Origin: Buxus sempervirens
Taxonomy: Eukaryota > Streptophyta > Magnoliopsida > Buxales > Buxaceae
Length of the DNA stretch: 64,000 bases
NCBI GenBank assembly: GCA_947561395.2
Contig: OX387187.1
Location: 41,707,829-41,771,828, forward strand
Direction: 5' to 3'
The position numbers and the translations under genes are program-made. Shown here piece after piece: positions 1-23,506 of this stretch. The notes beneath the pieces were generated by a model. It was given only the letters and a program-made list of their open reading frames with translations, ran no database searches and was not told where the DNA came from. Every line of letters starts with the position of its first letter. Positions within the stretch are counted from its first letter, which is position 1.

Positions 1-1566
1 TAGACCGTGCCCGCCGATCTGATGTAAGTCCTCTATTTTTTTTTTCTTTTATTTCTTTTCCTGTATTTTGACTGTACCTGACAGTTTCCTTTTTTTGCAG
101 CTCCTCCTGTCCCGATTTGATGACGTGGATGTTGGAGTGGCTCGTGAGATGGCGGTACAGGACGCCTTCGATAGAGATCGACGACGTCAGCCCTACCAGT
201 GCTTCCTCGGGAGGCTTGGTAGGGTGATGTACTTAGGAGAGCGCCTGTACTTCCAGCACACCAGCGCACTTCGCATCCCCGTCCCTCCTCCTCCTGTGGG
301 TCTCGACACACTCCTCCCAGGCTTTGATGTAGATCAGTTCGATCATTTCCTGGATGCAAAGGGGCTCACAGTAGCCGGAGATTATGACGAGTGGTTCCAG
401 AGGGTATCTATTGGATGCTTGATGGATCGACCCACTCGTGCTGGGGTGACAGAGATTGGCGGGATCCGTATCCAGATCCATGAGGACACGGTAAGCCTTG
501 TACTCTTCATATTTTTATCCCCTTTTTCTCCCTTATGCATTTCTGACCCTTCTTCTGTTCTTGTTGGCAGGTACACGAGCTGAATACCATTCGGGACCGG
601 TTCAAGAGCCAGCGGGCTGCGATCGATGATATGATCGTGGAGCACGATGCGGTCGTGGCCCAGCGGGATGCCCGGATCAGGGAGCTGGAGGCCTTAGTTG
701 CTGAGCTCCAGTCTAGTCAGGTATCTGGCCTTCTCATATTTTCATTTCTTTCATTTTCCTGTTTCTGCTATTCTGATGTGCTTGTTTGCCTTGTGCAGGG
801 CTCGGTCCCAGATCAGGATATTGCCTTCGAGCATGATTTTCTCATTCCTGACCCGTCTCCTGCTCAGGCTGCGGATCCTGTGGATGTCCCATCTGCTGAC
901 CCGGTGGTAGCTGCTCCTGCGAATCCCATGGCGGATACTCCTGGTGAGTATAGCTTTACTTCTTTGGTTTATCCTGATATTTCAATTTCTGACTTTTTCT
1001 GTTGACCAGATATTACAGCTCCTAGTCCTCCTGCTACTGCTGCCGAGCCTTCTGTGGCTGAGGCTGTCGTGGTTGAGGATTCGGCTGTACCTGAGGCAGC
1101 CCCCCTGCCTGCCGATACTGTCCCTGCTGGCTCTTCATCTCCTATGGTGGTTCCTGACCTTGCTCCTGAGGTCCTTGGTAAGTTTTTTTTTTTTTTTTCT
1201 TCTTCCCTTTTTGGGTTTATCCGGGTACTTCAATGTTTTAATTTTTCTATTGACCCAGATATTTCTGCCCCAGGTCCTTCCTCTGATGCTGCTGGGCCAT
1301 CTGGATCGGCGGGAGTGGAGGCTACTGTAGCTGCGGGCCCGGTCGAGCCGGTTGCTGCGGAGCCAGAGGCTTCTTCTGATTCTGTCCCTGTCCCTTCCCC
1401 TGATACATCGGACTACTGCATCGAGTACCAGCTTCAGTCCTTCATAGGACGGAGACCACGCTACATGGCGGAGCGTCTACTGTCCTACTATAGGCGTCGA
1501 TCATCTCGGGGGAGAGGTCGTAGAGGAGGACGAGGCAGAGGTCGCGGGGATGATCCTGCACAGTAG
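1..1566 (+). CDS. 3' part of an intron-containing gene with coiled coil and RG-rich tail, antisense inside the gypsy element
   Basis: Coding exons fit at 101-490, 571-720, 799-943, 1010-1177 and 1259-1566 (stop TAG 1564-1566), with a further donor at 24 ending an exon that starts left of the window. All introns have GT/AG ends (24-100, 491-570, 721-798, 944-1009, 1178-1258), and the frame is kept across the 80-bp second intron by a matching phase change. The first visible exon encodes a globular segment. The next gives a coiled coil containing ARIRELEALVAEL, and the following exons are Pro/Ala/Ser/acid-rich. The end is Arg/Gly-rich (RGRGRRGGRGRGRG), like RNA-binding RGG tails. I do not recognise the family. 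The ARIRELE motif recurs at the end of the PMD gene at 2052-3765, so the two may be related. Start codon is off window. Introns 4 and 5 and their flanks look tandemly duplicated. Confidence 0.6.
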
Positions 1567-1780: not shown

Positions 1781-1922
1781 GTATCCGGTCTGACATACCG
1801 TATACATTGATTGGTCCTTGTATCCGGTATAACATACCGGATACTCATAGCCTCTTGTGTATCCAGTATACTTATCCGGATATTAATAAAGCCTTTTGTA
1901 TCCGGTCTGAGTTACCGGATAC
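1781..1922 (+). repeat. Array 1: four 25-bp palindromes at exact 39-bp period
   Basis: Palindromes start at 1781, 1820, 1859 and 1898, so the period is exactly 39 bp (25-bp palindrome plus 14-bp spacer). Each is an imperfect inverted repeat of the form GTATCCGGT, 7 variable bases, ACCGGATAC. The spacers are unlike one another in sequence. The same unit and period recur at 12436-12577 and 16133-16274. The array ends 12 bp before a TATA box and about 130 bp before the PMD gene ATG, which is where a cis-regulatory cluster would be expected. Confidence 0.9.
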
Positions 1923-1934
1923 GTTAAAAGATGC

Positions 1935-1940
1935 TATAAA
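1935..1940 (+). promoter_or_regulatory. TATA box of the antisense PMD gene
   Basis: TATAAA in the context GCTATAAATGC, 112 bp upstream of the chosen ATG at 2052 and 12 bp after the last palindrome of array 1. Spacing suits a start of transcription near 1965-1970, which would leave a short 5' UTR. Start site not verified. Confidence 0.55.
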
Positions 1941-2051
1941 TGCAACCAGCCTCGGGATTTGAGCATTTTTTACGAGTTTTTGAGTTTAGAAACCCCCTTT
2001 TTCGCCTTTTTCTTCCTCCTCTTGAGTTCTAGCTTGCTCCCGTCAATTCCC

Positions 2052-3765
2052 ATGGAATCCGGATCATTTTCTGCCCCATTATTGTCTGTCCACACTGCCT
2101 CCCCTGCAAAACAACCTTTTAGATCAAAACCCCCAAATCTCACTAGGTACAACCCTGTGGATTCCTTTTACACAAGGTGGGTTAACTCTATGACCCTAGA
2201 TGAGGAGGGGAGATGGGGTACTACTAATCTAGGCCACATCCTGCTTATTCCCAAGGTTCCCTTCAGGTGGGAGATTATAGAGGCTATGATTGGTCATTGG
2301 GTTCCTGACCTCAACTTGTTCCGTTTCGGGAATCATGAGATGACCCCAACCATTGAGGAGGTGGAAACCATCCTGGGCTTGAGGTTTGATGAGAAGGTGG
2401 TGAATCCACCTCTTAGGCCCAGTTACAAAAAAGAAGCTTCTACATTCTTGGGCATAGGGAAGAAGGACTTGGGGGATTCTGACACCCTTTTGACCCTATC
2501 TAAGGCCTTTTTGACTGAGAAGCTTTTGAGGGGGGAATATAAGGAGGCCCGGTTCAACGCCTTGACCTTGATTGTGGTCAACAAGTTACTTTTCCCACGG
2601 GAGGATGACGAGGTGGACTTGGCCTTGATCTCAGTGATATGCCAGGTTAAGGAGCGGGAGAGGTTGGCCCCTATGATTTTGGCTGGGATGTATCAGGCCT
2701 TGACCGACTGCTACAATAGGAAGTCGAAACGCTTCCTAGCATGTGCCCAAATCCTGCAGGTAAAAAAAATTTTTTTTTTTATTTCTTTTTTTCTTGCTTT
2801 TTGGCTTTCTTTTTGCCTTTTTTGCTTTTTTTTTTTATATTTTTTTTAACAATGTGCTGACATATCTCTCTTCCTTTGCAGCTTTGGCTATTTGATCATT
2901 TGAGCCAGATTGAAGAGATCAATCGACACTTCTTCCCGAGTCTAAAAGTCCCCCTCTTGATGAGCAACAGGGGTGCCCCGATATTCCAGGGGGCAAACAG
3001 CGCTGGTTCACTTTCTTGGGCTCACTTCAGGAGGACCAGGTGAGATGGCCTGGCACTTATCAGCCCAATGCAGCGACAGTGATTAGCTTCCGTGATCGCA
3101 ACTTTCTGATCCTAGCGGGCCTGAAGCATGCAGTGCTGTATCTTCCTCTGCGGGTCCTTCGTCAGTTCCGTGCGACCCAGGGGATTATCATCCCATGTGG
3201 ATATGAGGATCGTCTTGGGCCCCTTTCTATGAAGCTGAATGCCTGGTTGATGAAGGAGTGGTCCTATGTCCGCTTCATGCATGGTCCAGTCTTCTCAGAA
3301 GCCCATGTGAAGGATTATCTCTTCTGGATCAAGGAACAGATACAGACTCAGGCCCCGGTACCCGAAGATCCTCCTGTAGTCTTGGCTCCCACTTATGAGG
3401 ACATTCTAGAGTCTGAGCGGGCTTCTCATAAGCGGCTTCAGCAGATATGGGTACGGGAAGCCCAGGAGCTCAGGATACAGGGCACTTATCTGGAGAGGCA
3501 ACTTGAGGAGCAGATCTCACGCCGTATTGCCATGGAAGAGAAGCTGGAGGAGCAGAGGCAGGCCCGTTGCTTCGAGGTCCGTATGATCCGGCAGAAGTAC
3601 CAGGCTGCTTTGGCCAGCCTTAGGAGTATGAGGATCAAGCAAGCCCTTTCAGATGAGGTCATTTCCTTCCTGAGTGATCCCGCTGCAGAGGGGGCTTCAG
3701 GAGTCATTGCAGCTCAGGCAGCTCGGATTCGGGAGCTTGAGGAGCGGCTAGGGGACAGAGATTAG
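2052..3765 (+). CDS. Plant mobile domain (PMD)-like protein gene, antisense in gypsy element, probably frameshifted
   Basis: The start is ATG 2052 (context TCCCATGG). An upstream open frame to 1959 is ignored because it would place coding sequence in the UTR just after the TATA box. Exon 1 is 2052-2759 (236 codons), the intron is 2760-2881 (GTAAAA...TTTGCAG), and exon 2 runs on to TAG 3763-3765. Residues about 82-115 (HWVPDLNLFRFGNHEMTPTI onward) resemble the conserved start of the plant mobile domain of MAIN/MAIL1 and many transposons. The C-terminal third is a predicted coiled coil ending in ARIRELEERLGDRD. Exon 2 begins in one frame (LWLFDHLSQIEEINRHFF) but the rest (RWFTFLGSLQEDQVRW onward) is in another, so a 1-base indel seems to lie between about 2913 and 2990. 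An alternative acceptor at 2970 would bypass it but skip conserved-looking sequence. Cellular PMD proteins act in gene and transposon silencing; the role here is unknown. Confidence 0.65.
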
Positions 3766-3846
3766 CTTTATTTCCTGCACATTTTTCTTTCATACCTTTG
3801 TACGAAATTGAACTCCAATAGTGAAAAGCCAAAGTATTCAATTCAA

Positions 3847-3852
3847 AATAAA
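3847..3852 (+). terminator. Candidate poly(A) signal of the PMD gene
   Basis: AATAAA lies 82 bases after the PMD stop codon, in a T/A-rich context. Plant signals are loose, so this is suggestive only. Confidence 0.4.
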
Positions 3853-4677
3853 ATTTTTATATTATTGGCCTCAGAATGCTCAGATGCTTGTAAAAACAAA
3901 GGTTTTATGAAAAGTATTTGATTTCTCATCACTGGCCAAAGTATAATTTTTCCTTTTTATATTTTTTTTTTTGTATTTTTTGAAATTTGGTCCATGCACT
4001 TAATCACCTATAATCAAAGGAATTAAAACCAGGTTAAATAATGAAAAGGGTAGTCCACAAAATACTGAGGGATCAGAACCGTCCATCTTAGGACCTTTAG
4101 AGTCATCCCCAACTACCAAAACTGCCCCATTCTGCTCATGCCAACTTTGCTTAAGGCTCAGATCCCCATGATCAACTCAACCTCTGATTTTCTTTCATTT
4201 TTCTTATTTTTTTCTTTTTGCCTTTTTGCCAATATTGCCCCTAGCGCCAGTTACGGTTTTCACTAGGGCCGGCTTCTGAATTCCGTCATCACCCATCTTA
4301 CTCTGATATTTGAATGAACAAGCTAAGATCACCGAGGGCTTAAAAATAGGACGAAATAAAGGCTAGGTTTATGAAAGAAAGGGTATTAAAGGCCCAAAAA
4401 TTTCAAAGGTGGAAATAGGTCAACCGGACTTACAGTCATGATGAATTTAACCCTTTTCCCCCAAATTGCATTTTTTTCACACTTGGCTTTCATTTGCCAT
4501 TTCCATTGCTTTTCCTCTCTTTTTCTTTTTCTTTCCTTACTTTGCCCCAATTTAAGACTGTAAATCCGGTTTGGGTTTATCAAAGAAACGAACCGGCTCA
4601 ACTTGGCTAAACTAGGGATTTGAATTTTGAAGGAAATAAAGAAAAATGGCCTCGGATCCTTTCCTAGAAATATTCAC
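3853..4677. other. Non-coding stretch between convergent PMD gene and pol
   Basis: About 0.8 kb without coding signal, T-rich on the plus strand. Plus-strand PMD transcription and minus-strand pol transcription converge here, so overlapping transcripts are possible. Nothing else recognised. Confidence 0.5.
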
Positions 4678-7226
4678 TCAAGGGAAATACCTTTTTACCG
4701 CATCAGAGTTAATGGGCTCAGGAAAATCTGACCCATCCATTTCTGCTAAGATGAGTGCACCCCCTGACAGGACCTTTTTGACGACATATGGGCCTTCCCA
4801 ATTGGGCTTGAACTTACTATGAGGATCTTCCAAAAATGGTAGAATTTTCTTTAGCACCAGGTTTCCTTCTTGGAAAGTTCTGGGCCTCACTTTCTTATTG
4901 TAAGCCCGGGCCATTCTCTTCTGGTACAACTGTCCATGGCAAAGCGCTTTCAATCGTTTTTCTTCTATCAGGTTAAGTTGATCATGTCTCGACTGGACCC
5001 ATTCGGCTTCTTCTAGTTCTGCTTCCATGAGCACTCAGAGTGAGGGGATCTCTACTTCCACAGGCAAGACTGCTTCCATTCCATAGACTAGGGAGTACGG
5101 GGTTGCCCCAGTTGAAGTCCGGATCGAGGTTCGGTAGAGCAAGTGGAAGATGATAAGACTCGAATCCCCGTATACGTCAAGTTCCTCTACTCCATGATCC
5201 ATGGCTGCTTGCAATCCGATTATGCATGCTTCATATTCTGCTATGTTATTGGTGCACTGGAATCTCAGCTTTACTGCAATTGGGATATGTGAACCATCTG
5301 GTTTAACCAAGACTGCCCCTATTCCGTTCCCATTCATATTGGCGGCCCCATCAAAGAACATCTGCCAAGAACCCTCACTGTCCTCCTCTTCAGTGTACAG
5401 AATTGCCTCATCTGGGAAGTTGGTCTTCAAGGGTTGATATTCTGGCAGAGGATGTGCAGCCAGGTGATCAGCTATGGCTTGACCCTTGATCGCCTTCTGG
5501 GTGATGTATGTGAGGTCAAACTCGGACAGTAGCAGTTGCCACTTTGCCGTCCTGCCAGTCAGTGCCGGTTTCTCAAATAAATATTTCAGCGGGTCCATCC
5601 GGGATATCAACAGTGTGGAGCGACTAAGGAAATAATGCCTTAGCCTCTGAGTGGCCCACACTAGAGCACAGCAAGTCTTTTCCAATGGTGAGTATTTGGC
5701 TTCATATTCTGTGAATTTTTTACTCAGATAGTAAATTGCCCTTTCTTTTCTACCAGTCTCATCATGCTGCCCCAAGACACATCCTATCGACGTTTCCAAT
5801 ACTGACAAGTACAGGATCAGCAGTCTTCCTGGAGTTGGTGGCACTAGCACAAGTGGGTTCAGCAAATACCTCTTTATTGTGTCAAATGCCTGCTGGCAGT
5901 CCTCATTCCAGACCGTAGGGTTATCTTTCCTCAAAAGTTTGAAAATTGGTTCACAGATAGCAGTGAGCTGTGCTATGAACCGGCTTATGTATTGAATCCT
6001 TCCAAGAAAGCCCCTGACCTCCTTCTCGGTTCTGGGTGCTGGCATTTCAATTATGGCCTTGGCTTTAGCCGGGTCAATTTCAATTCCCCTTCGACTCACT
6101 ATAAACCCCAGTAACTTCCCTGATGTAGCCCCAAAGACGCACTTAGCCGGGTTAAGCCGTAGACTGTACTTCCTGAGCCGATCAAACACTTTCTTCAGAT
6201 TGATCAAGTGGTCCTCCTCTTTGCATGATTTGGCAATCATATCATCCACGTAGACCTCCATCTCCTTATGGATCATGTCATGGAATAGTGCAGTCATGGC
6301 CCGCTGATATGTTGCCCCGGCATTCTTGAGTCCGAATAGCATGACTGTATAGTGGAATGTGCCCCAAGGTGTGATAAATGCTGTTTTTTCTTGATCCTCC
6401 TTAGCCATCTTGATCTGATTATATCCCGAGAAACCATCCATGAAGGAAAACAGGCTATGTACCACAGTATTATCTACCAGAATGTCGATGTGTGGAAGTG
6501 GAAAATCGTCCTTTGGGCTTGCCCTGTTTAAGTCTCTATAATCCACACACATTCGGACTTTTCCGTCCTTCTTGGGTACCGGCACTGTGTTTGCGAGCCA
6601 CTCAGGGTACGTAGAGACTGCCAAAAATCCGGCTTGAAATTGTTTGACCACTTCGTCCTTGACCTTTAAGGTCCATTCAGGCTTCAATCTTCTCAGCTTC
6701 TGCTTAATCGGCTTAACCCCTGGCAAAATTGGCAACTTGTGCACCACCATGTCAGTGTCCAACCCTGGCATGTCCCGATACGACCAAGCAAACACATCCT
6801 TGTAATCTGCCAAGAATTGTGACATTTCATTTTTCTGCACATCAGACAAGCATGACCCGATTTTCACAATTTTTGGGTCCTCTTTGGTCCCAAGATTTAT
6901 GGATATGGTCTCCTCAATATTAGGTTGGACCCCCTTTTCATGACGTTCCAATTGGTATTCAATTTCTTTTGGAACGTCTTCTTCTTCGACCTCGGTCTCT
7001 TCTTCGACCCCCATGAGATCAAAGTCGAGCTCAAGGTCGAAGTCATATTCAACCTGGTCTAATTCGGTCTGATTATATGGTTCATAAGTGGTTTGGACCT
7101 TTTTGAAAAAATTAAATTTCCTAGAAAAAATAGAAAAATCTTTTTGGGTTTTTTGTGGGCCTTCTAAACATAATTCCCCTGAAGACGAAGGCCCATTAGA
7201 ACCTTCAGGGAAATGGCAATCCACTA
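4678..7226 (-). pseudogene. gypsy pol: RT, RNase H, second RNase H, truncated integrase
   Basis: The open frame runs from about 7226 down to a TGA at 5035-5037, then continues in the same frame to 4678. Reverse transcriptase shows YVDD at 6252-6241 (residues 325-328 of the open frame), with FSGYNQIKM and LFGLKNAGATYQRAM around it. Next come a degenerate RNase H connection domain and the archaeal-type RNase H (FFDGAANMNGNGIGAVL near 5360-5310). After VYGDSSLII the sequence jumps directly to YRTSIRTSTGATPYSLVYGM, which is normally near the end of the integrase core. The rest of RNase H, the zinc-binding domain and the D,D,E core are missing (junction about 5140-5160). The TGA replaces what is probably CGA (Arg) in the family. 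The final segment is the integrase C-terminal domain (KKILPFLEDPHSKFKPNWEG). The frame joins the upstream gag-pro frame through a 9-A run. Confidence 0.9.
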
Positions 7227-9794
7227 TTGGAGTTTTTTTTTGGAAGCCACGTCAGTTTGCCGAACTAACGCTGCTTCAAAGGTAAGGGGAGTTTCCTCCC
7301 AATTGTTCAATACAAAATTTTTGGGAGCAGGGGAAATAGGGAAAGTCTGCTCCTCAAGCCCAGCATCCGATGCCATCATCACCGGGTGGGTACTGCCCTT
7401 TTCTGCTACGGGGCCCAATCCAGAAATGACCTCTTCCGGAATCTTTACTGCGGCCCAGTCAATGAACGGCAGGCCCATGTCACTGTCAGTCTTTTCGCCT
7501 TCAGTCATGGCGAAGAAGGCACCAACATCTTCAGAAAAGTCCACCTGTTGCTCGGGCTGTGGCCCAGGCCCATTTGCTGCTCTCAGTATTGGAGAGGGGT
7601 TATAGGGTTGTAGGGCCGAAACAAAAGGCTTTTGAAATGGGTTGATGTTGTAGTAGGGAGGCTTGGACTGGTCCATGGGAGGAGAAATTTGGATTGTGTA
7701 GAAGGGTTTTGGAAAATTCTCCCTTAGATGAGGGAGTTTTCCTCTGCTTCTGCTCTCCCCTTCTTCATGTTTCATTCTTCTCCATCCTCTGGGCTTGAAG
7801 CCCAACCCTACCTTGGGGATCAGTTTCTTAGCTGTGATTGGCTCCACCATCCCCTGCAGGTTGATCCCCAGGCCTTTCCCTGGGTGAAAGTGGTATTTCT
7901 CCATCACTTTCTTGACCATTTTTTCTGCAGTGGTCCCCTTTTCCTTCTTTTTCTCACACCCCCCAGGTATGTAATTGACCGCCTCAAATTGGAATGAGTG
8001 GAATGCAATCTTGTCGACAGTTAGGTCCACATTGATCAAGGGTACATCAGGTGACACGATGGGCGGCACCAAGTTTTCGGCTAGGACTGTTATCACCCTT
8101 TGCCCTCTTATATATTTCACTCTTTGGTGGAGCGTGGATGGTATTGCCCTAGCCGAATGTATCCATGGCCTTCCTAGGAGCAGATTGAAGGCTGCTGGTA
8201 TATCCATCACTTCAAATGTGATGTTAAAGATATTCGGCCCAATTGTGACCGGCAGTTCAATCTCCCCTAGGGAGTGGGTCTTGGAGCTATCAAAAGCCCT
8301 CACTATCCGCCCATTTCGTTTGATCCTTGACTGGTCCAAACCCAGCTTGGTAAAAGTGATTAACGGGCAAACGTTTAATGCCGACCCGTTGTCAATTAAA
8401 ACCCGTGCAATCATGCAGCCCTTACAAAGCACAGTGATGTGCAAAGGGTCCACATGATAACACCCACCTGGGCTGATCTCACCCTCTGAGAAACTTATCA
8501 CATTATGTGACAAGATTTGACCAACCATTTTACCAAGCTGGTCTGGATCAATGGTCTGGGATACATGTGCACTCTGTAGCACCCTTAACAATGCATCCCT
8601 ATGCTTTTCGGAATTCAGCAAAAGGCCCAGTATTGAAATCTGGGCCGGGACCTTGTTTAGCTGATCCACAAGATTGAATTCACTCTTTTTTATTATTTTT
8701 ATGAGGTCAGCTGCCTCATTTTCTGCACCCTGGGGGGTGTCTTCTCCCACTTTATTTTTTCCTTTTTGTTTTCTTTTTTCATTTTCTTTTTCTGCTTCTG
8801 TCTCCTTCTCTTCACCCCCTGCACATCTCCCTGACCTCGTCATGAGGTTCACCTCCTCCTGGTTCTGGTTCCTGACCATTGGAACCGTAGCCGTGATTCC
8901 CTCGCTGTAGTTCCATGGTACAGCGGCCTCAGAATAGGCTAATTTAGGGATGTTAACCACTAGTGGCTGGAGTTTGGACCGGGATGTATGGGCCAGTTTA
9001 GGGATAGTTTGGGCTGGCTGCACATTTACAACCAAGGGTTGAAGTTTGGATTTGGTGGGGACAGAAGAAGTGATGGAAGCAGTGGTGGGGTCAAGATTGA
9101 TGACCAGTGGAGCCTTGGACGGCTTGGATGGAGAATAAGTGGGTGGACTGCAATTAAAGACCAATGTGGGCCTTGCAGTATTCATCTGGGTCATAAGAGA
9201 TGAGACCCGGCTTAAAGAGGAACTTATGTCCTCAGCAGCTATATTGTTTTTTTGGGAGACCATGTTGATCTCCTCTTCTTCCTCTTCTGGGAAAAATCGG
9301 ACCTGGACTGTAGTCCCCACAGGTGCTATAAGCTGAGATGGGTCAAAGGCCCTTCTCGTGGTGGATATGGCAGTGATGGAGTTGGATGGGCCTACCCCAT
9401 TGTGGTACGGCAGAGGGTTCTGCCCAATATCATTTCCCGACGGGGCGGGTGCAGCAGTGTTAAAGACCAAAGCCTTCTGGTCCAACAGGTCCTGGACCGC
9501 ATGCTTCAGCACCCAGCAGTTATCTGTAGAGTGCCCTGGTGCACCCATGTGGAAGTCACAGGTGGCTGCCGGATCATAATTCCTCCCCTTCGGGGCATTT
9601 GGGTTAGGCTCCTTCAGAGTCAAGTATTCCCCTTTCAACAGGGTTGGCAGTAGTTGGGACAGAGATATCGGGAGAGGAGTGAAGACTCGGTTCTTCCTTG
9701 CTGTGAACCAGGCATCCCGCTCCTCCTTAGTAAAGGCCCTCCTTGTGTTAGCTGGCACAGAGGGAGAGAAGTTGACATTCAGCGGGGTCTGGTA
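7224..9794 (-). CDS. gypsy gag C-terminal region, aspartic protease and G-patch-like segment
   Basis: This frame is continuous with gag apart from a TAG at 9795-9797. It starts with a zinc-knuckle-like CDFHMGAPGHSTDNC (C-x2-H-x5-H-x4-C), passes low-complexity Pro/Ser/Lys/Glu-rich linkers, and reaches the retroviral-type protease with VLIDNGSALNV (near 8400-8370; the catalytic motif is D-N-G-S instead of D-T/S-G). It continues with FNLLLGRPWIH and a glycine-rich GKGLGINLQGMVEP segment (near 7895-7840) that resembles the G-patch seen in Tat-type elements. It ends at TAG 7226-7224 just after a 9-A run, where a slip of -1 would enter the pol frame. The protease half is uninterrupted, but because gag is broken upstream the product is unlikely to be made from this copy. 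Confidence 0.85.
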   Translation of the reverse strand, partial: YQTPLNVNFSPSVPANTRRAFTKEERDAWFTARKNRVFTPLPISLSQLLPTLLKGEYLTLKEPNPNAPKGRNYDPAATCDFHMGAPGHSTDNCWVLKHAVQDLLDQKALVFNTAAPAPSGNDIGQNPLPYHNGVGPSNSITAISTTRRAFDPSQLIAPVGTTVQVRFFPEEEEEEINMVSQKNNIAAEDISSSLSRVSSLMTQMNTARPTLVFNCSPPTYSPSKPSKAPLVINLDPTTASITSSVPTKSKLQPLVVNVQPAQTIPKLAHTSRSKLQPLVVNIPKLAYSEAAVPWNYSEGITATVPMVRNQNQEEVNLMTRSGRCAGGEEKETEAEKENEKRKQKGKNKVGEDTPQGAENEAADLIKIIKKSEFNLVDQLNKVPAQISILGLLLNSEKHRDALLRVLQSAHVSQTIDPDQLGKMVGQILSHNVISFSEGEISPGGCYHVDPLHITVLCKGCMIARVLIDNGSALNVCPLITFTKLGLDQSRIKRNGRIVRAFDSSKTHSLGEIELPVTIGPNIFNITFEVMDIPAAFNLLLGRPWIHSARAIPSTLHQRVKYIRGQRVITVLAENLVPPIVSPDVPLINVDLTVDKIAFHSFQFEAVNYIPGGCEKKKEKGTTAEKMVKKVMEKYHFHPGKGLGINLQGMVEPITAKKLIPKVGLGFKPRGWRRMKHEEGESRSRGKLPHLRENFPKPFYTIQISPPMDQSKPPYYNINPFQKPFVSALQPYNPSPILRAANGPGPQPEQQVDFSEDVGAFFAMTEGEKTDSDMGLPFIDWAAVKIPEEVISGLGPVAEKGSTHPVMMASDAGLEEQTFPISPAPKNFVLNNWEETPLTFEAALVRQTDVASKKKLQ
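7227..7250 (-). promoter_or_regulatory. A9 run at gag-pro/pol boundary: slippery site or 1-base deletion
   Basis: On the minus strand the codons read TCC AAA AAA AAA CTC CAA TAG. A -1 slip on the nine A residues gives ACT CCA ATA GTG and enters the long pol frame. This could be a programmed -1 frameshift signal or a length mutation in a homopolymer; a sequencing error is also possible. I did not identify a clear pseudoknot downstream. Confidence 0.4.
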
Positions 9795-11015
9795 CTACTG
9801 CTGGGCCTGCTGGGCCTGTTGGGGTGCCGAGATGTTCACATGAAGTGGCTTCTTGGCTGGAGGAGCCTGGACCAAGTTCACCTCCCCTTCTTTTCGGGCC
9901 CCTGTCTTCTTGAATCCGGCCCCTTTCTTCTGGGCCATGGAGGCAGAGGAATCAGACTGCCCAGTCAGAGTAGAGTAGTCTATCAGCCTTCCTGACCTGA
10001 CCCCTTCCTCGATCCGGTCCGCCACCTGCACTAGGGCTGCAAAATTGGTGGTGATCTGACCCACCAGATGGTTGTAAAAAGGCTGCCCCAGTGTGCCCAT
10101 AAATGTGGAGATCATCTCCGGCTCTTGCATAGGTGGCCTGACCTGGGAGGCGGCCTTTCTCCACCTCTTGGCGTATTGCCGTACTGGCTCATCTTTGCCC
10201 TTGGTCATCCTCATCATGTCGTACCGGTCTGGCACAATCTCCGAGTTGAACTTATATTGGTCCAAGAAAGCATCGGCCAAGTCCTTCCACCTTCTAATCC
10301 TTCCATGGTCCACTGTAGCGAACCACTGAAGGGCTGACCCGGTTAGACTCCTCTGAGAGTTGGATCAGTATGCCATCATCCCGGCCAAATTGGCATAGGG
10401 CCCCGCAGTATAACTTTAAGTGGCTCAATGGGCAGCCCGTGCCATCAAATTTGTCGAAGTCTGGGCACTTGAACTTAGCCGGTAGACAGACGTCCGGGTA
10501 CATGCACAAGTCTTCGAAGGTGGTGCCTCCATGGCTGCTTCCCCCTTCACTTCCTTCAGCTCTGCCTGGATCCTCTCTATCCTGAGCAGCATTTTCTTTT
10601 CCATCTCATCCCTCGCCTTTTCTTTTTCCAGCTCTTTCTCAAATTCCGCTGTATTTTCCCTGATCAGAATGGGCTCAGGAACTGGTTCAGAAATGGGCTC
10701 AGGCATGGGCTGAGCCGGAGGCGGAATATAGGCCTGAGGTGGTGGTGCCGGATGGGAAGTAGAGGCTTGATTTTGGGCCTGGGCCTGTTGGGCCTGAGCC
10801 GCCAGTAGGTCCTCCAGCATCTTGGCCAGACCGGCCACTTGTTCCTGCAGTTGAGTAAAGTCCATAGCAGGGACAGTAGCTTGGGCTTGGTTCTCTTCAG
10901 TATTCATGGCTCTTGCTTTGGATCTGGTCACGGGAGCAATGACTGCAAATAAGTGCACCTGGGTTGAAAGTAAATGTACCTGACGAAAAAATGAACAAAA
11001 CATGTTAGCTTCCAT
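9795..11015 (-). pseudogene. gypsy gag, broken
   Basis: Gag reads from ATG 11015. It has a short leader with PVTRSKARAM, a coiled-coil and Gln/Ala/Pro-rich part (LAAQAQQAQAQNQAS), then LCMYPDVCLPAKFKCPDFDK and the conserved capsid-like core ending DHGRIRRWKDLADAFLDQYK and VRQYAKRWRKAASQV. Three breaks are visible. The frame changes around 10525-10515, where APPSKTC should run into FEDLCMYPD, and again around 10355-10340 within SEESN/SLTGSALQWF. There is also an in-frame TAG at 9797-9795 in a Gln-rich stretch, most simply CAG to TAG. The frame after the TAG continues smoothly into the protease region. Gag would form the particle and bind RNA; this copy cannot make it intact. Confidence 0.85.
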
Positions 11016-11134
11016 TTAACTTGAGTCACACCCCTATATATGTAAACCAGTAGGTTAGGTGAACACCAATCCAGATTTTTTTTGTTTTTTGTTTTTTTTT
11101 TTTTTTTTTTCTTTGTTGTTTTGATTTTGTGTTG

Positions 11135-12126
11135 GAATATTCTAGGGCTTCCAAGGGTCCCAAAAATTTTTTTTTGATTTGATTGATAAAAATAACCAAC
11201 CAAGGTTTTCATGGAATATTCTAGGGCTTCCAAGGGTCCCAAAATTTTTTTTTTTTGATTTGATTGATAAAAATAACCAACCAAGGTTTTCATGGAATAT
11301 TTTAGGGCTTCCAAGGGTCCCAAAATTTTTTTTTGATTTGATTGATAAAAATAACCAACCAAGGTTTTCATGGAATATTCTAGGGCTTCCAAGGGTCCCA
11401 ATTTTTTGATTTGATTGATAAAAATAACCAACCAAAGGTTTCTTGGAATATTCTAGGGCTTCTAAGTGTCCCACAAATGTTTTGATTTGATTGATAAAAA
11501 TAACCAACCAAAGGTTTCTTGGAATATTCTAGGGCTTCCAAGTGTCCCACAAATGTTTTGATTTGATTGATAAAAATAACCAACCAAAGGTTTCTTGGAA
11601 TATTCTAGGGCTTCCAAGTATCCCACAAATGTTTTGATTTGATTGATAAAAATAACCAACCAAAGGTTTCTTGGAATATTCTAGGGCTTCCAAGTGTCCC
11701 ACAAATGTTTTGATTTGATTGATAAAAATAACCAACCAAAGGTTTCTTGGAATATTCTAGGGCTTCCAAGTGTCCCACAAATGTTTTGATTTGATTGATA
11801 AAAATAACCAACCAAAGGTTTCTTGGAATATTCTAGGGCTTCCAAGTGTCCCACAAATGTTTTGATTTGATTGATAAAAATAACCAACCAAAGGTTTCTT
11901 GGAATATTCTAGGGCTTCCAAGTATCCCACAAATGTTTTGATTTGATTGATAAAAATAACCAACCAAAGGTTTCTTGGAATATTCTAGGGCTTCCAAGTG
12001 TCCCACAAATGTTTTGATTTGATTGATAAAAATAACCAACCAAAGGTTTCTTGGAATATTCTAGGGCTTCCAAGTATCCCATAAATGTTTTGATTTGATT
12101 GATAAAAATAACCAACCAAAGGTTTC
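11135..12126. repeat. 76-bp tandem repeat, 13 units, in the gypsy leader
   Basis: Units begin with GGAATATTCTAGGGCTTC near 11135, 11214, 11294, 11370 and then every 76 bp from about 11443 to 12051. Four left-hand units have an AAGGGTCCC plus long T-run variant and vary in length because of the T run. Nine right-hand units are nearly identical and carry AAGTGTCCCAC or AAGTATCCCAC. The array lies between the primer-binding site and gag on the element's sense strand. Tandem arrays inside Tat/Ogre untranslated regions are known sources of satellite DNA. Open frames across it are an effect of the 76-bp period and not genes. Confidence 0.97.
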
Positions 12127-12435
12127 TTTTTTTTTATTTTTTTCTTCAAATTTGCTGAATTTTATCAGTTTTCAAGTTCCAAAGTTTGACTGACACATGT
12201 TTGAGTTAAGTTGGTGTCAAAAAATATGACACCTTGGTTCCTTCTTTGAGTTTCAAAATTAGGTTAAATCCTGAAAGAATGTTTTATTTTATTTTTTTAT
12301 TTATTTTTTTTTTTTGATTTTGTATTTTGGAACATTTTTATGTTCTTTTCGGGGTGCCTACGGATTATCCACAGTGTTTTAGGCATTTTATTCTGAAAAT
12401 TTGGGCTGAAAAGCCAATTTGTGCATTTTTTGAAC
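12127..12435. other. Non-coding leader segment
   Basis: AT-rich with several T runs. It holds GGGGTGCCTACG at about 12353, which resembles an LTR terminus (the LTRs here end GGTGTCTACA) and could be an old internal duplication. No coding signal. Confidence 0.35.
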
Positions 12436-12577
12436 GTATCAGGTATAATATACCGGATAAGAATATGCCTTATTGTATCCGGTCACCCTAACCGGATATA
12501 CGCATATGTCTTTGTATCCGGAAATACATACCGGATATGAATAGAGTTGTTATTAACCGGCCTGAGTTGCCGGTTAT
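12436..12577. repeat. Array 2: four 25-bp palindromes at exact 39-bp period
   Basis: Palindromes start at 12436, 12475, 12514 and 12553, the same 39-bp period as array 1. The first three keep the GTATC(C/A)GG ... CCGGATA(A/T) arms. The fourth has changed arms (TTAACCGG ... CCGGTTAT), changed on both sides so that pairing is kept. No obvious TATA box lies next to this array on either strand, so its role is less clear than for the other two. Confidence 0.88.
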
Positions 12578-13340
12578 TGCCGAAATGGCCCTTTTTGACT
12601 CATTTTTTCACCCGATTAGTTTTTTTTCATTCCCAATTGATGTTCACCTTAATTTGTCCTTCAAAACTTGCCCCAAATTGGGCTTGGACATCATACTTGC
12701 AAAATTCCCTAAATTTAGGAAAAGAACATAGCTTTACCTTGCCACCTTGTATTACCTTTATTCAATATGGTATTCACATTATACCTTGGCCTGTAAAACA
12801 TGCAAACGGCCTTCCCACATTTACACCCAATTCCCCAAACGCAATTGTGTGCTTTTAGCCGAAAACGTGTTTCTCCACCTTCAAGCGTATGGTTTTTGGG
12901 TTTTGGCTTAATTGGCAACTTAGAACTCAAGTCTAGTGATGCCCGGAATCGAATCACAGATCCCATTGTCATCACATCATTGACCCAAATTCTAAGGTAA
13001 ATGTTTTCACTTTCGCTTTCCGAAGTCACGACCTCGGTGCGCCAAGCTACACACATTCATGGTTCAACTTCCTAATAGGTAATGGGTAGGCTATGCAAAT
13101 TGTTTCAAGTGCTCAAGTGCAATTTAAAATTGTGGTAACATTCACAACGTCCCAGCCCCTTGCCACTCTTTTTCGTAGCCATGCATTCAATTTCAAGCCA
13201 AGGCATATATAACAAAATAATGAAGCTAAATACAAGCAAGCAAGCACCAAAACAACTAAATATGCATAAAAAATATTACATGCCCAAAAAGTGTTATACA
13301 AAACATGTTATTTGTACAAACAACAATTAAACCATGGAAG
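12578..13340. other. Leader region without coding signal
   Basis: Part of the long untranslated region between primer-binding site and gag. Several short open frames occur on both strands, but none has a recognisable motif. Confidence 0.45.
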
Positions 13341-13910
13341 CATGCTTGACATCCCAAAAGCATTCCCTAAATCTCAGATTTCATGCTCAAAGTGTGCCAT
13401 TTCTACCCAATTTGAAGCCTAAAAATTTAGCACTTACTTGACATGGTTCAAAAGTGTTTCAATGAGGTAAAACATGCTTAAGATCTCCCCAAAATACATT
13501 AAGATTTCCAGATTTTTCATGCTCAAAAGTGCATCCCTTATACCCCAAATTAATGCCCAAAAATTCTAGCCACTACTTGACATGGTATAAGGAGAGTTTT
13601 GATGGTAAAAACATGCTTGAAAACTCATATGATGGCTACTGAATTTCAGATTTCATGCTCATGGTTTTCATGCTCAAATCATGTCATCTTATACCCCAAA
13701 ATCCCAAGCATGGCATAAAGCAAACATTAAGCACAAAAAAACTTTATTCATGGGAAACATGCTTGAATACCCAAGACAAACCTGAAATTTCCAGATTTCC
13801 AACATTGTATATTTTTCATGGCATTCTAACCCCAAAACCCATGCTAACACATAATATAGCAAAGTCATACAACAATGTGGGTTTTTCCCTTAAACCAAAT
13901 CAAGCAACAT
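13341..13910. repeat. Degenerate tandem repeat of about 130-146 bp, four copies
   Basis: The marker CATGCTT(G/A)A recurs at 13341, 13473, 13612 and 13758. Between them sit, in the same order, AGATTTC(CAG), TTCATGCTCAAA, ACCCCAAA and CTTGACATGGT in partly conserved form. The copies are well diverged, so the array is older than the 76-bp array in the same leader. Confidence 0.6.
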
Positions 13911-14053
13911 GACCATGCCTTTATCCATGAAAAATTTTAAACATCCCATTCAGATTTAAGATACAACAATATTAACAAAAAAAAAGCAAAATAGCAAGCA
14001 TTCAAAAGTGAAGAAAAAGCATGAATATACACAAATAGGCTTAAATCCACAAG

Positions 14054-14071
14054 TCCCCAGCAGAGTCGCCA
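14054..14071 (-). promoter_or_regulatory. Primer-binding site
   Basis: The minus strand reads TGGCGACTCTGCTGGGGA, two bases after the end of the 5' LTR (LTR ends ...TGTCTCACA at 14074). It begins with the TGG that pairs with the CCA tail of a tRNA. A PBS of this kind has been reported for Tat/Ogre elements with tRNA-Arg as primer; I have not checked the match to a tRNA. It fixes the element's orientation as minus. Confidence 0.85.
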
Positions 14072-15968
14072 GTTGTGAGACATGGGAAAAATCACCGGAA
14101 TGATCATCCCTCCGTCAACACACGGACTCAACGCAAAAATGAGAGAGTCGCCACCATTCATGATTTTGGGGTGAGAATGGACACCAAAGAGTTCAAAATA
14201 AGCAAAAGGTGAAAAAAAGAAACATTCTAGGATAAAAATAATCCTACTTGAAGATCAAATCCAGAGATGGGTAAGGGGATTAGATTATGAATGGGGGAAG
14301 GTGTTAGGCACCCCCATTCATCCACACGAAGTGGTTGCCAAGTGTATGTTCATGCAAAAAAATAGAAAGCTTGCTAAAATCATAGAAAACCTTGAAAAAG
14401 GACTAATGTATGATATTTTCACATGAAGATCTAAATGGATTTTAGATCCTCTCTTATGTCAATATCATTTCTGGAATATCTCAAAAAATTGGAAATCAAA
14501 GCACAAGTTGCTTAAAACCAAGTTAAATCAAATCCGGAAAATTCGGTAAAAAGTATGCCATTTGCCTTGAAATCATTCAAATCCAATTCTAAATTGAACC
14601 AAACCAAATCCATTTCAAAGACTAGGGTAAATAAGAGTCTCATGCAAAATTTCACTTCATTCCGATGAAAAATCTAGGAGTTATGCTCCTTTGAAGTTGC
14701 TGCTGGGGATTTTTAAAAGTGGTAAGTGGGCAACTTTGGAAATTTGTCTAGAAAAATCCACTACATAAAAGTCCACGAGATTTGGTGTGATTGAAGTTTG
14801 TATGGCCATCTTTCAAAAGAAACTAGCCTCATACAAAAATCCCTTCGGATGTGCCTTGGGTGGTCTCCCGAACAGGCCCCGAAGATCACAGATTTACCCA
14901 GAAAAGTACAAATGAACAGTTCTGAGTAAATCGGCAACCAATATTTCAAATGGAATCCAAAAATTATGAAACCAACTAGATTTAAAAATAGACTCATAAA
15001 GGAGTACTCAGAAACAAAAATCACACGAATCGGACTTAAAACGAACACATGGCGCTCCGTCGAAGTGACAAGTTCTGTATTTGAACCTGAACTGTCCACT
15101 TTACTTCGACAGAGAGGTGTCAAAAATCCGTTCGATGGAAATTCATGAAATTTGGTGGACATAAACTAGACAGCCTCACCTTTCCCATGGTTCTGGAATC
15201 GCTCCAAAATTCATCCGGATGATGAAGTTATGAGCGTCCGAAATCAAGGTACAGGTGCTGTCCAGTTAGGCCACTTTTGAAGAAAAACCAAATCCGAAAA
15301 TTGATACAAATATGTGATTCGTGCAAGATGAACACAAATACTTTAAAAATCATCCAAAAGGCATTCCAGAATTGATTGAGGCCATTTATTTGAGATTTAT
15401 CACAATAAATGCAATAAACCCCAAATATGAGCCTATCCCGCCAAAATAGTGATATGTATGTGCAAGTGTAAAAAACCAAACAAGATCAATAGCATGCATA
15501 CATATTCATCCAAATAGGGTTCTAAGACAGCCTAGGGTTCCGTTCCATTATCTTTTCCCTCTGTTCTCTCTCCCCGTTAAACACGGTTCTTCAAGATAAT
15601 CAAGGGTACTTTGAATATGGAACGGTTTACAATCAATCAAAAAGGCCTTATGCTACATGGGTTCTAGCACTAGGGTCAATCCCTAGTCTCGTTTCTCCTA
15701 GATCCGCCTTCACGTTTTACGGCTAGGGGAGTCTTGAGATACTTTGAGCCGGGGAAGGATTTCCACACATACAAACAAGGCTTTACACTACAGAAAGGTA
15801 GAAGAAGAGATCTAGATCTAGGAATGTAAAGACAAAAAATAAAAAGAAAAGTTGAGGCTTACCTGAGTTCTGGAGGTGATTCCGCAGCGGTTTTCTTCTT
15901 CTCTTGGAGTTCTTCTTTGCGAGAATTCAAAACAAGAGTTCAGTGCCATTTGCTCAAGGAGGAGGCTC

Positions 15969-15978
15969 CTATTTATAG
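15969..15978 (-). promoter_or_regulatory. TATA box of the LTR promoter
   Basis: The minus strand reads CTATAAATAG followed by GAGCC. The same motif in the same context occurs in the related solo LTR at 18292-18283. This puts U3 at about 16364-15945 and makes R-U5 unusually long, about 1.9 kb. Confidence 0.7.
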
Positions 15979-16132
15979 GCAAAGGCTAAGGTCATTGGTA
16001 GACACAACTTAATGTCTAGAGCCCACCAACCTTAACCCTAAGGTTATTTCTGAGATTTCCCCTCATTTAATGAGGGACATGATGGTAAAAGTGAAAAGCT
16101 CTCGGAAAACCCTAATTTTGAGCAAACTTAAA

Positions 16133-16274
16133 GTATCCGGTATATCAGACCGGATAAAAAAGGGCCTTAAGGTATCCGGTACATGGTACCGGATACACTA
16201 AGGCTCACATGTATCCGGTATGAGTATCCGGATACGGGAAAGGGTACTTGTATCCGGCCTGAGTATCCGGATAC
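16133..16274 (-). repeat. Array 3: four 25-bp palindromes at exact 39-bp period, in LTR U3
   Basis: Palindromes start at 16133, 16172, 16211 and 16250. The arms are GTATCCGG(T/C) and (A/T)CCGGATA(C/A), separated by 7 variable bases. The array lies in U3, about 155 bp upstream of the LTR TATA box in the direction of transcription, as expected for an enhancer-like binding-site cluster. Confidence 0.9.
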
Positions 16275-16369
16275 AGGTAAAAATTTATTTTCTTCCATTT
16301 CTGTGTTGGCTTTCCAGGAGATAATGATTTTTTAAGATTGTTTGTGCAATTTGGGGTGTCTACAGAAAT

Positions 16370-18491: not shown

Positions 18492-18757
18492 AACCGTATA
18501 CTCAGTGCGGTTTCAACAGAACCGTCACTCTAATACGGTTCCCATGCAAATTCAACCAAACTGCACATACAGGGCGGTTCAATTCAGTTACGCTCGTCAT
18601 GATTGCTGTCGATGTGTCTCAACGGCCGAAGCTTCCGAAAGCCACGTGGCAGCTCACGCAACAAGCATGAATATCAACCGTGCTGTGTGTGCGGTTGCAA
18701 CCGTACATACAGGGCGGTTCAGACCAAATTAACCAAAACCGCACATTCAGTACGGTT
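18492..18757. repeat. Six 21-bp palindromes AACCG-N11-CGGTT in solo LTR U3
   Basis: Copies lie at 18492, 18520, 18559 (first arm AACTG), 18676, 18699 and 18737, each 21 bases long. The middle often reads (C/T)ACATACAGGG or close to it. The stems differ completely from the GTATCCGG family in the neighbouring LTR, yet they occupy the same position relative to the TATA box. Spacing is irregular (28, 39, 117, 23, 38 bp). Confidence 0.85.
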
Positions 18758-21383: not shown

Positions 21384-21890
21384 TTGAAGCGCTAGGGCGA
21401 TTCTCGACGAGGGCTAGGGCGAGGGCGACAGGGCGACTCTCGGCGACTGGGCGTCTCTCGCGCCACTAGGGCGAGGGCGACTCTCACGGCGCTCGGGCGA
21501 GGACGACTCTCGGCGTTTGGGCGAGGGCGACAGGGTGACTCTCGGCGATTGGGCGTGGGCGTGGGCATGGGAGTCTGTCGGCGACAAGGCGAGGGCGTCT
21601 CTCGCGTTAAGGCGACAGGGCGAGGGCGAGGGCGTCCCTCGCGGCTGGGCGAAGGCGAGGGCGTCTCTCGGCGCTAGGTCTTCAACGCGTCTCCCAGCGT
21701 CAGGGCGTCAGGGCGAGGGCGTCGCTCGAGACAAGGGATCAGGGCGACAAGGCGAGAGTGGCTCTCGCATCACGGCGAGGGCGTCTCTAGGCGCCAAGCC
21801 ATCAGGGAGTGTCTCTCGGCGTCAGGGCGTGACTCTCGGCGACAGGGCTTCAGGGTGAGACTCTCGGCGACAGGACAATTTGCTAAGGAC
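21384..21890 (+). repeat. GC-rich GGGCGA/CTCTCGGCG low-complexity 5' UTR of the LINE
   Basis: Repeats of GGGCGAGGGCG and (G)TCTCTCGGCG in irregular order, very rich in CpG, in contrast to the AT-rich surroundings. It sits directly upstream of ORF1 and inside the target duplications, so it is the LINE's 5' UTR and perhaps its internal promoter. Open frames across it are low-complexity artefacts. Confidence 0.8.
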
Positions 21891-21994
21891 CCCGTTCGTC
21901 TTCCTTGTCTTGGAGGAGACTCTCGGGGATTCGGGCGACTTGGGCGTTTTGGGTGATTTGGGTATGCAAGTGTAGGGTCTGCAGCTTTGCGCCA

Positions 21995-23506
21995 ATGGCT
22001 ATCAGCATCCAAGCTGGTTCTTCTTCGCTCCCTCCGGATAAGACAAGATCTTTTGCTGCTGTCGTCTCGGGTTCTGTCTTTGCTGTTGAAGACATCCAGG
22101 TTCCAAGGAAACCGGTTACAAGCTATCATGGATTCCCTGCGGTTGAATTTTCAGACGTTGAAATCAAGAAATCCATCAGCCCCTTTTCTTTCTCCTTGGT
22201 AGCAAAATTTTTCAATGGGAGGCCGTCTGTGGATGTGGTTCGAGAAGCCATTCAAAAAACATGGGCAATCCAAGGCAGTTTCCATGTTGGAGTTCTAGAC
22301 AATCGGCATCTACTCTTTCGGTTTAGAGAAGAAACAGACTTTATAAGAGCATGGACGAGAGAAAACTTATCAATCAAAGGGTTTCATTTTCGCCTCTTTC
22401 AATGGAATATGCGTTTTGATCCCACTAAAGAGTCTTCGCTGGTGCCAGTGTGGATTTCGTTACCCAACCTCCCCATTAACTTATTCCCAGAATCCTTTAT
22501 CTTTTCTATAGCAGGAGCCGTTGGTAAACCCCTTACTCTTGATGCTCCCACAAAAAACATTTCAAGACCTAGCTTGGCAAGGGTATGTGTTCTATTGGAT
22601 CTGCTCAAGGATCATCCTGATAGAGTATGGGTTCGTATGGGTTCGGAATATGGAAGATGGCAGCGTATAATCTATGAAAAAGTTCCCTCTTACTGCACTA
22701 GTTGTTTCCATCGAGGGCATGATACCTCCTCCTGTCGTGTAGCATTGAAGAAGAAGAACCCAGAAGTTCAGAAACAGCAATACAAACGGGTAGGAGTTTT
22801 TGATTCTTATCCTACTTTAGAGAACTCATTTGAAGTCCTACCTCCTGAGAAAGAAGGTGCTTTTGATCACGGGAAAAACAAAGATTTGAACAAGTCTCAT
22901 CGGTTTGTGGAAGACCTGCAACACCAAGATCAGTTAGGACAAAAGACTTTGCAAGATAATCTGGAAGAGGTTGTCCCTTTTGAGAAGAATGGATCACAAC
23001 AGGATTATGATAGTGCACAAGCCAATCAGGGCCAAAATACTGATCAATCTCAAGGTGAAGACGAATTTTTAGAAGCTAGTCACATTGATTTGGAGGATGG
23101 TAATATTAATCTTTTTAGAAGGAAACATCGAATTCTTTCTAAGTCACACGTTCTCCATCAGATCAATTTTGAAACTAATCGTCCAGCTGACTTGCAAACA
23201 CCCAAGCAATCGGGCCCCACCATCCAAGCTCTCTCATTGGGATCATGTAAAACTGATTCCTTAAAGGATTATTCATCTTTGAATGAAGCCAAGGAAGCAC
23301 TCCTACACGATCAGGCTATTTTAGCAAAAAGAATGGAGTTAACTTTATTTAATCTGGAAGGACAGTGGGATCAATCTCAAGGTGAAGTCTCTAAGTTGGT
23401 TCTATCATCTCAGAACACTAAGAAGAAGAGCAGCAAATTTCCCTCAAGAAGTTCCACAAGGTCAAAGGTAAAGACCTCTTCTAAACTTAATCAATTTGTT
23501 TTTTAA
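21995..23506 (+). CDS. LINE ORF1: DUF4283-like RNA-binding protein with CCHC zinc knuckle
   Basis: The start is ATG 21995 (context GCCAATGG); the open frame reaches further upstream but without an ATG and into GC-rich UTR. The product is 503 residues, ending at TAA 23504-23506. The N-terminal part (FSFSLVAKFFNGRPSVDVV, later VWISLPNLPINLF) looks like DUF4283. It is followed by a zinc knuckle C234-x2-C237-x4-H242-x4-C247 (YCTSCFHRGHDTSSC), which is how ORF1 of plant L1 elements is built. The C-terminal half is hydrophilic and low in conservation. The protein should bind LINE RNA and help form the RNP. Its stop codon shares one base with the ORF2 start, so translation is likely coupled. Confidence 0.92.
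   Translation: MAISIQAGSSSLPPDKTRSFAAVVSGSVFAVEDIQVPRKPVTSYHGFPAVEFSDVEIKKSISPFSFSLVAKFFNGRPSVDVVREAIQKTWAIQGSFHVGVLDNRHLLFRFREETDFIRAWTRENLSIKGFHFRLFQWNMRFDPTKESSLVPVWISLPNLPINLFPESFIFSIAGAVGKPLTLDAPTKNISRPSLARVCVLLDLLKDHPDRVWVRMGSEYGRWQRIIYEKVPSYCTSCFHRGHDTSSCRVALKKKNPEVQKQQYKRVGVFDSYPTLENSFEVLPPEKEGAFDHGKNKDLNKSHRFVEDLQHQDQLGQKTLQDNLEEVVPFEKNGSQQDYDSAQANQGQNTDQSQGEDEFLEASHIDLEDGNINLFRRKHRILSKSHVLHQINFETNRPADLQTPKQSGPTIQALSLGSCKTDSLKDYSSLNEAKEALLHDQAILAKRMELTLFNLEGQWDQSQGEVSKLVLSSQNTKKKSSKFPSRSSTRSKVKTSSKLNQFVF

Follow-up and report, generated by a model that had tools for sequence, protein, structure and literature searches.

The element, its arrays and its genes

The window analysed here is the whole stretch of 64,000 nucleotides at C9:41707829-41771828 of the Buxus sempervirens genome, of which 676.5 Mb in 247 contigs were scanned. 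It carries a Ty3/gypsy Tat-like long terminal repeat (LTR) retrotransposon on the minus strand, 21,750 bp long by coordinates, which hosts arrays of short palindromes; the remainder of the element lies in a fetched locus adjoining the window on the left (L010). The 5' LTR (14074..16364, minus strand) is 2,291 bp long, runs from TG to CA with limits set by eye, and shows 6 differences from the partner LTR at L010 4615-6905. A 5-bp target site duplication, GAAAT, is present at both outer LTR sides. Annotated on the minus strand are gag (9798..10364; Pfam Retrotrans_gag, 5.9e-12) and a pol region of two open reading frames (ORFs; 5038..9794) with G-patch, reverse transcriptase (RT), RNase H, and a second RNase H-like domain. 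The Pfam matches Retrotrans_gag, RVT_1, RT_RNaseH, and RVT_3 together represent the gag, RT, and dual RNase H combination of Tat elements, and dual RNase H is named as a Tat feature in the excerpts of PMC9289625. The dN/dS of the RT-RNase H ORF was 0.06-0.09 in four comparisons with other copies, several of which contain stops.

Array 1 (1781..1922) has four 25-bp palindromes starting at 1781, 1820, 1859, and 1898 and is located at the promoter of antisense gene A, whose TATAAA (1935..1940, plus strand) is 12 bp from the last unit. Array 2 (12436..12577; units at 12436, 12475, 12514, and 12553) is in the leader between the 5' LTR and gag, and matching flanks were found at six more arrays in other loci. 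Array 3 (16133..16274; units at 16133, 16172, 16211, and 16250) belongs to the U3 region of the 5' LTR, at a distance of about 90 bp from the start of that LTR; a likely LTR promoter box, TATAAATA (15970..15977, minus strand), lies about 155 bp downstream of it in the element orientation. The same array is in U3 of the partner LTR (L010 6674). A shorter array with one clear and one truncated unit precedes gene B (L010 7491), and at this place L013, L016, and L021 have two units 39 bp apart. The arms of the motif read TATCCGG...CCGGATA.

Three arrays of four such palindromes with an exact 39-bp period had been proposed in a preliminary description of the window, and reading the sequence at all three places bears this out. 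In a scan for GTATCCGGT-N7-ACCGGATAC with at most 3 mismatches, 11 of the 12 named units were recovered at their exact starts, and the period holds for 9 of 9 spacings. The same scan on 100 shuffles gave an expectation of 0.01 units and a largest count of 1, and no shuffle reached 11. The unit at 12553, described as changed in both arms with the symmetry kept, indeed reads TAACCGG / CCGGTTA and scores 6 mismatches.

Two antisense genes with a plant mobile domain (PMD) are coded on the plus strand of the element. Gene A (2052..3762) consists of a DUF7745/PMD part at about 2052-2792 (Pfam DUF7745 3.9e-18, PMD 2.3e-13), an apparent intron, and a second part at 2914-3762, which is coiled-coil-like by eye and where DUF7745 scores just 0.045. 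The likely 3' part of gene B is at 1..1566 (plus strand), with putative exon limits and splicing, and its PMD exon is upstream at L010 8867-9883 (Pfam PMD 1.1e-14); the two window ORFs tested for this 3' part had no Pfam match. In the Pfam scans, the antisense genes matched PMD and DUF7745 only. Compared with other copies, the first part of gene A shows a dN/dS of 0.08-0.11 in four out of four cases and, judged by these ratios, gene A is under purifying selection. The ratio is 0.20-0.42 for its second part (four comparisons) and 0.16-0.35 for the tested part of gene B (three comparisons). A search for gene A homologues in a large protein set gave 585 candidates, 0 of them at E<=0.001, and a PDB sequence search with the PMD of gene B gave no match. 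An AlphaFold2 model of the gene A core, computed without relatives, had a mean pLDDT of 36.9 and was not used.

Period and constraint across copies

In the fetched loci, 96 arrays were recognized, a sample that is non-random, since every array in it was detected by way of one or more exact or near-exact units. Functional spacing, as proposed in the preliminary description, would not go with random numbers and spacings of the unit in other copies; instead, 68 of the 96 arrays have four units listed, and among 296 listed spacings, 249 measure 39 bp (12 are 38 bp and one is 40 bp). Twelve steps of 103-104 bp stem mainly from family-2-like arrays built as 2 + 3 units; spacings of 9, 13, 26, and 30 bp come from matches with up to 6 mismatches that overlap or are off register. 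Genome-wide, exact CCGGATAC followed by GTATCCGG with a spacer of 5-19 bp occurs as 11,555 pairs, 11,447 of them with exactly 14 bp, and the reversed-pattern control is 0. The unit motif with at most 2 mismatches has 31,073 sites in the genome versus 7 in the reversed control, with transposable element (TE) origin traced for some of them only.

The distance to the TATA box is similarly fixed at some promoters. Of 17 gene A arrays, 15 have TATAAA exactly 12 bp past their last unit. The corresponding distance to TATAWA is 11-12 bp in 11 of the 17 unclassified arrays, which are family-2-like by eye; within 30 bp of random points, TATAWA was found in 183 of 9,200 cases. The end units of many arrays, those of family 2 too, have asymmetric loops CTCAG / CTGAG, as if they had a special role. 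Three family-2-like copies (L023 2427, L024 1393, and L018 5360) have a second array with TGATCCGG variant arms 1.0-1.7 kb off the first, and that of L023 is within the LTR.

Arms are more conserved than the sequence between them. In the LTR set (41 non-redundant copies of 45 aligned, out of 55 arrays classed as LTR), the mean pairwise difference is 0.068 for arms, 0.263 for loops, and 0.274 for spacers, so that arms are about four times less divergent; this does not bear out decay of the arms at the neutral rate, which the preliminary description had named as evidence against functional spacing. The flanks of this set differ by 0.415 upstream and 0.093 downstream. The length of the array is 142 bp in 37 of the 41 copies, 141 bp in two, and 103 bp (minus one unit) in two; the 142-bp upstream flank keeps its length in only 2 of 41, and the downstream flank is fairly stable (143 bp in 24, 142 bp in 8, 153-154 bp in 8, and 141 bp in one). 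In these copies, arms are kept, and loops and spacers vary at constant length. In the gene A set (8 copies), the values are 0.048 for arms, 0.128 for loops, 0.146 for spacers, and 0.143 and 0.046 for the upstream and downstream flanks; in the leader set (7 copies), they are 0.053, 0.177, 0.139, and 0.057 and 0.061, respectively. When exact units, which seeded the sampling, were removed as a bias check, arms and loops differed by 0.088 and 0.236 among the LTR copies, where 121 of 164 units remained, by 0.073 and 0.110 in the gene A set, and by 0.062 and 0.128 in the leader set. Among units within one array, likeness is 97% for core arms, 39% for loops, and 41% for spacers (71 distinct arrays).

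Covariation of the arms was computed on 175 distinct units of 382, with unclassified arrays in arbitrary orientation. Positions 2-8 and 18-24 of the unit are almost invariant. The pair 9/17 varies with the symmetry kept, being complementary in 105 of 175 units against 68.5 expected (p=0.0005), and the pairs 2/24 and 4/22 vary likewise. For the inner pairs 10/16, 11/15, and 12/14, complementarity in these units is not above chance. Summed over arm pairs 1-9, there are 51 G.T/T.G and 52 A.C/C.A pairs, so no wobble tolerance is seen, and a dyad at the DNA level is favoured. The preliminary description had left the choice between phased protein dimers and a defined folded RNA. Phased dimer binding is well supported by the sequence because of the 14-bp spacer, the arm constraint at fixed length, the distance to TATA, and the half-site geometry shared with the sister families; a folded RNA is not supported, given the wobble counts and the position of the gene A array upstream of TATA.

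Palindromes of the sister families

To avoid selection by motif, 20 upstream regions of 601 bp were selected by coding match; out of 118 scored DUF7745 matches, they were hand-picked among those whose match starts near profile position 18-20. An array of GTATCCGG had been expected ahead of most DUF7745 genes, but it was seen in only one of the 20 regions (L094, family 1, the family of the window element), where the steps are 39 bp and TATA follows at 12 bp. Other palindromes occupy the same promoter place in the rest, and the 20 regions fall into five families (1, 3, 4, 5, and 6). Family 3 (9 regions) has CCGTA-N7-TACGG with a period of 27-28 bp, and TATATAAA begins about 25 bp past its last unit. 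Family 4 (8 regions) has AACCG-N11-CGGTT with steps of 28, 41, and 28 bp, family 5 (1 region) has AACCGAAA-N5-TTTCGGTT with steps of 38 and 39 bp, and family 6 (1 region) has CCGTA-like units with steps of 28, 27, and 28 bp. The 11-bp difference between periods of 28 and 39 bp would correspond to about one helical turn.

The palindrome of every family reduces to CCG-N11-CGG. Counted as CCG-Nk-CGG with k from 0 to 30, the 20 regions have 60 sites at k=11 and at most 7 at any other k, and each region has at least one site at k=11. Block shuffles of the regions had a mean of 0.78 and a maximum of 4 such sites (300 shuffles). In the genome, CCG-N11-CGG occurs 163,369 times, N10 43,280 times, and N12 40,613 times. 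N10 and N12 were used as controls, the reversed pattern being a poor one for CpG triplets (GGC-N11-GCC, 126,325). The excess at N11 is about 120,000 sites, about four times background, with the sites untraced singly to elements. Palindromes with CCGAC/GTCGG arms at 39-bp steps were observed at C1:2135130 and C1:2206965, and more motif families probably exist. Within the window, a neighbouring element has a different array (18494..18755), with AACCG-N11-CGGTT-type units at 18494, 18522, 18678, 18701, and 18739 in uneven steps of 28, 156, 23, and 38 bp; it represents another motif family beside family 1.

If one regulator served the whole element, the LTR of a family should carry the motif of that family. 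In family 3, L109, picked by distance alone, has four units (1051-1134) just within the start of a family 1-like LTR and four further units (1606-1688) ahead of a gene B homologue found in L115. The family 3 motif has 8 matches there versus 0.70 expected, and the family 1 motif is at chance. Family 3 therefore has its own motif in an LTR-like region, read from one end, and at the gene B promoter. A two-unit pattern of family 4 has 2,916 and 2,932 places in the genome versus 1 and 0 in the control. Among 100 listed places, four copies were picked by hand on C1. In these, the pattern marks two LTR-like ends separated by 21.0-21.3 kb, as well as a gene A-like promoter and a place some 2.25 kb away from that promoter; three out of four also have the leader place, 3.7 kb inside one end. 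With LTRs judged from positions alone, the arrangement of family 4 looks like that of family 1. A distance-based guess at a family 4 LTR (L110) had no arrays, was not LTR-like, and was counted neither way, and a guess of the same kind at gene B of family 4 (L116) gave no gene B match.

Predicted regulation and known systems

The arrays are probably promoter sets of dimer sites in dyad symmetry, serving one regulator across the element. Each array would represent usually four sites for a sequence-specific protein dimer at a promoter, a site being two half-sites CCG-N11-CGG with family-specific flanking letters. The period, 39 bp here and shorter by about one helical turn (27-28 bp) in sister families, would hold neighbouring dimers in register for mutual contact. 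The same sites stand at the LTR promoter, both antisense genes, and the leader, so a single regulator would control the entire element, down to the genes that may encode the regulator itself. Position, symmetry, period, and constraint are properties of the sequence as read, and one motif is at several promoters per family, as read in families 1 and 3 and taken from positions in family 4. From these features we infer that a dimer binds and either activates the element or keeps it unsilenced.

Several results weigh against this reading. The copies are kin by descent, and their counts are not independent. TATAWA within 30 bp was found at 0 of 55 LTR-class and 0 of 7 leader arrays, the LTR box of family 1 being about 155 bp off, and no TATAWA was seen close downstream of the arrays of families 4, 5, and 6 in the 20 regions. 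The downstream flank of the LTR set (0.093) is nearly as conserved as the arms (0.068), that of the gene A set (0.046) equals the arms (0.048), and leader arms are no slower than their flanks (p=0.57). The 60 sites at k=11 come chiefly from families 3 and 4, and the family 1 region L094 has a single exact CCG-N11-CGG. Three further results weigh specifically against an element-encoded factor: families 1 and 2 have a common motif despite 33% identity of their gene A cores, families 3-6 have other motifs at 74-81% identity, and gene B of family 2 was not found in the three pieces searched (L023, L029, and L030).

Whether the regulator is encoded by PMD genes A or B of the element rather than by the host is evenly balanced in our estimate. 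The gene A core is identical to that of family 1 at 80% in family 3, 74% in family 4, 75% in family 5, 81% in family 6, and 33% in family 2. As this identity is out of step with the motif, the gene A core is not the determinant of specificity, and gene A is weakened as the specificity protein. Gene B is 49-52% identical between families 1 and 3, less conserved than the gene A core, and is a candidate regulator. Family 2 may use the family 1 factor in trans, or a host factor. A host origin throughout is possible, though we rather doubt it: the arrays would be bound by a family of host dimeric factors with different flank preferences, the elements would parasitise host transcription, and families 1 and 2 would use the same host factor. 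The shared motif and period of these two families at so low a gene A identity, the closeness of gene A and family-2-like arrays to promoters, and the U3 enhancer repeats through which plant LTR elements use host factors all speak for it. The use of a single motif at several promoters within an element, with others at the same place in other families, speaks against it, and long arms in several copies rather suggest a private system that co-evolves.

Explanations other than promoter sites fare worse. Docking of integrase or of a nuclear protein, or the positioning of chromatin by a nucleosome-sized array, would suit the length of 142 bp, about one nucleosome core, and the leader array, which is away from a TATA box; with array lengths that differ in other families and several arrays at TATA boxes, such non-transcriptional roles are improbable. 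Action as RNA hairpins in packaging, silencing, or small-RNA production is very improbable. The dyad symmetry and the inclusion of internal arrays in full-length genomic RNA would allow it, but arm mismatches show no excess of G.U (51 versus 52 of A.C type), the letters of the arms are conserved beyond mere pairing, the inner pairs are at chance, and a TATA box lies downstream of gene A and family-2-like arrays. Head-to-tail order would also be produced by slippage, and tandem repeats are often contained in Retand-type elements according to the part of PMC11963269 available. Functionless short tandem repeats are nevertheless scarcely credible here, with a period almost fixed, unit loss or a 1-bp change in just 4 of 41 LTR arrays, and arms slower than loops and spacers between copies; homogenisation does not explain arms that are 97% alike within arrays beside loops at 39% and spacers at 41%.

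The arrays have partial parallels in known systems. In Tnt1-like plant LTR elements, tandem U3 activator repeats are near the promoter, and the likeness consists in repeated short motifs in U3; we know of no such repeats shared with internal antisense promoters or built on one half-site geometry fixed across families. Gal4-type sites of yeast, CGG-N11-CCG, also occur as several dimer sites upstream of TATA with triplets 11 bp apart. The triplets are reversed here (CCG-N11-CGG) and the kingdom is another, and to our knowledge there is no homologous protein in this element.

The closest logic is that of VANDAL/VANC in Arabidopsis Mutator-like elements, as far as excerpts of PMC5735166 and PMC10398659 describe it. 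As with VANC, a short TE-enriched motif has multiple noncoding copies and differs between related TEs (PMC5735166, in part). Arrays at the promoters and leader of the loci read agree with a TE-specific motif repeated in noncoding regions, and the motif differs among families 1, 3, 4, and 5, with families 1 and 2 alike; VANC6 motifs, too, are present in an unrelated TE in the excerpted text of PMC5735166. The VANC21 motif is 9 bases long, and its copies, arrayed in the same direction, have been gained as well as lost (same excerpts), unlike the palindromes of 17-25 bp with near-fixed number and period in an LTR retrotransposon, whose binder is predicted.

Antisense additional ORFs are also described for Grande, RIRE2, and Retand in excerpts of PMC7264820 and PMC11963269, where the Grande antisense ORF is transcribed from its own promoter with a suggested regulatory role. 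Those of Retand type are mostly TRP28, present in 97% of clusters, and the LTR is 315-1,194 bp long (PMC11963269, in part), unlike the two DUF7745/PMD genes and the 2,291-bp LTR here, and the element was not assigned to Retand. A common palindrome array at each promoter is unmentioned for these three elements in the excerpts of the two papers, and among the matches listed in open-licence PMC literature, mostly without subscription journals, no such arrays are described, which is weak evidence of novelty.

The excerpted papers (PMC7264820 and PMC11963269) leave open why plant Tat-type elements retain antisense genes whose function is unknown. A family-specific array of dimer sites at promoters would join the antisense genes to the LTR in a single regulon and offers an exact DNA target. 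With somewhat less than even confidence, we propose that PMD-bearing Tat elements encode a dimeric regulator of their own, which would act through CCG-N11-CGG arrays to activate every promoter of its family or to lift the silencing there, the code of flanking letters and period having diverged per family; this would be private control of the VANC kind and may account for the approximately 120,000 excess sites. With an element-encoded factor, LTR retrotransposons would, like VANDALs, have arrived at private codes for control or anti-silencing. With a host factor, its site geometry would have been multiplied to about four times background genome-wide, which would bear on host regulation.

Three further observations concern this copy and its surroundings. 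In pol (window 5038-7251), about 1 kb between RNase H and the C-terminal stretch is absent, which is present in L012, L015, and L020; the missing part is where integrase would be expected, and this young copy is probably non-autonomous. A 76-bp tandem unit in about 13 copies is upstream of gag (window 11132-12128), with matching repeats in other copies. At window 21887-27657, there are two long plus-strand ORFs of 539 and 1,388 aa, which are LINE-type-like by eye.

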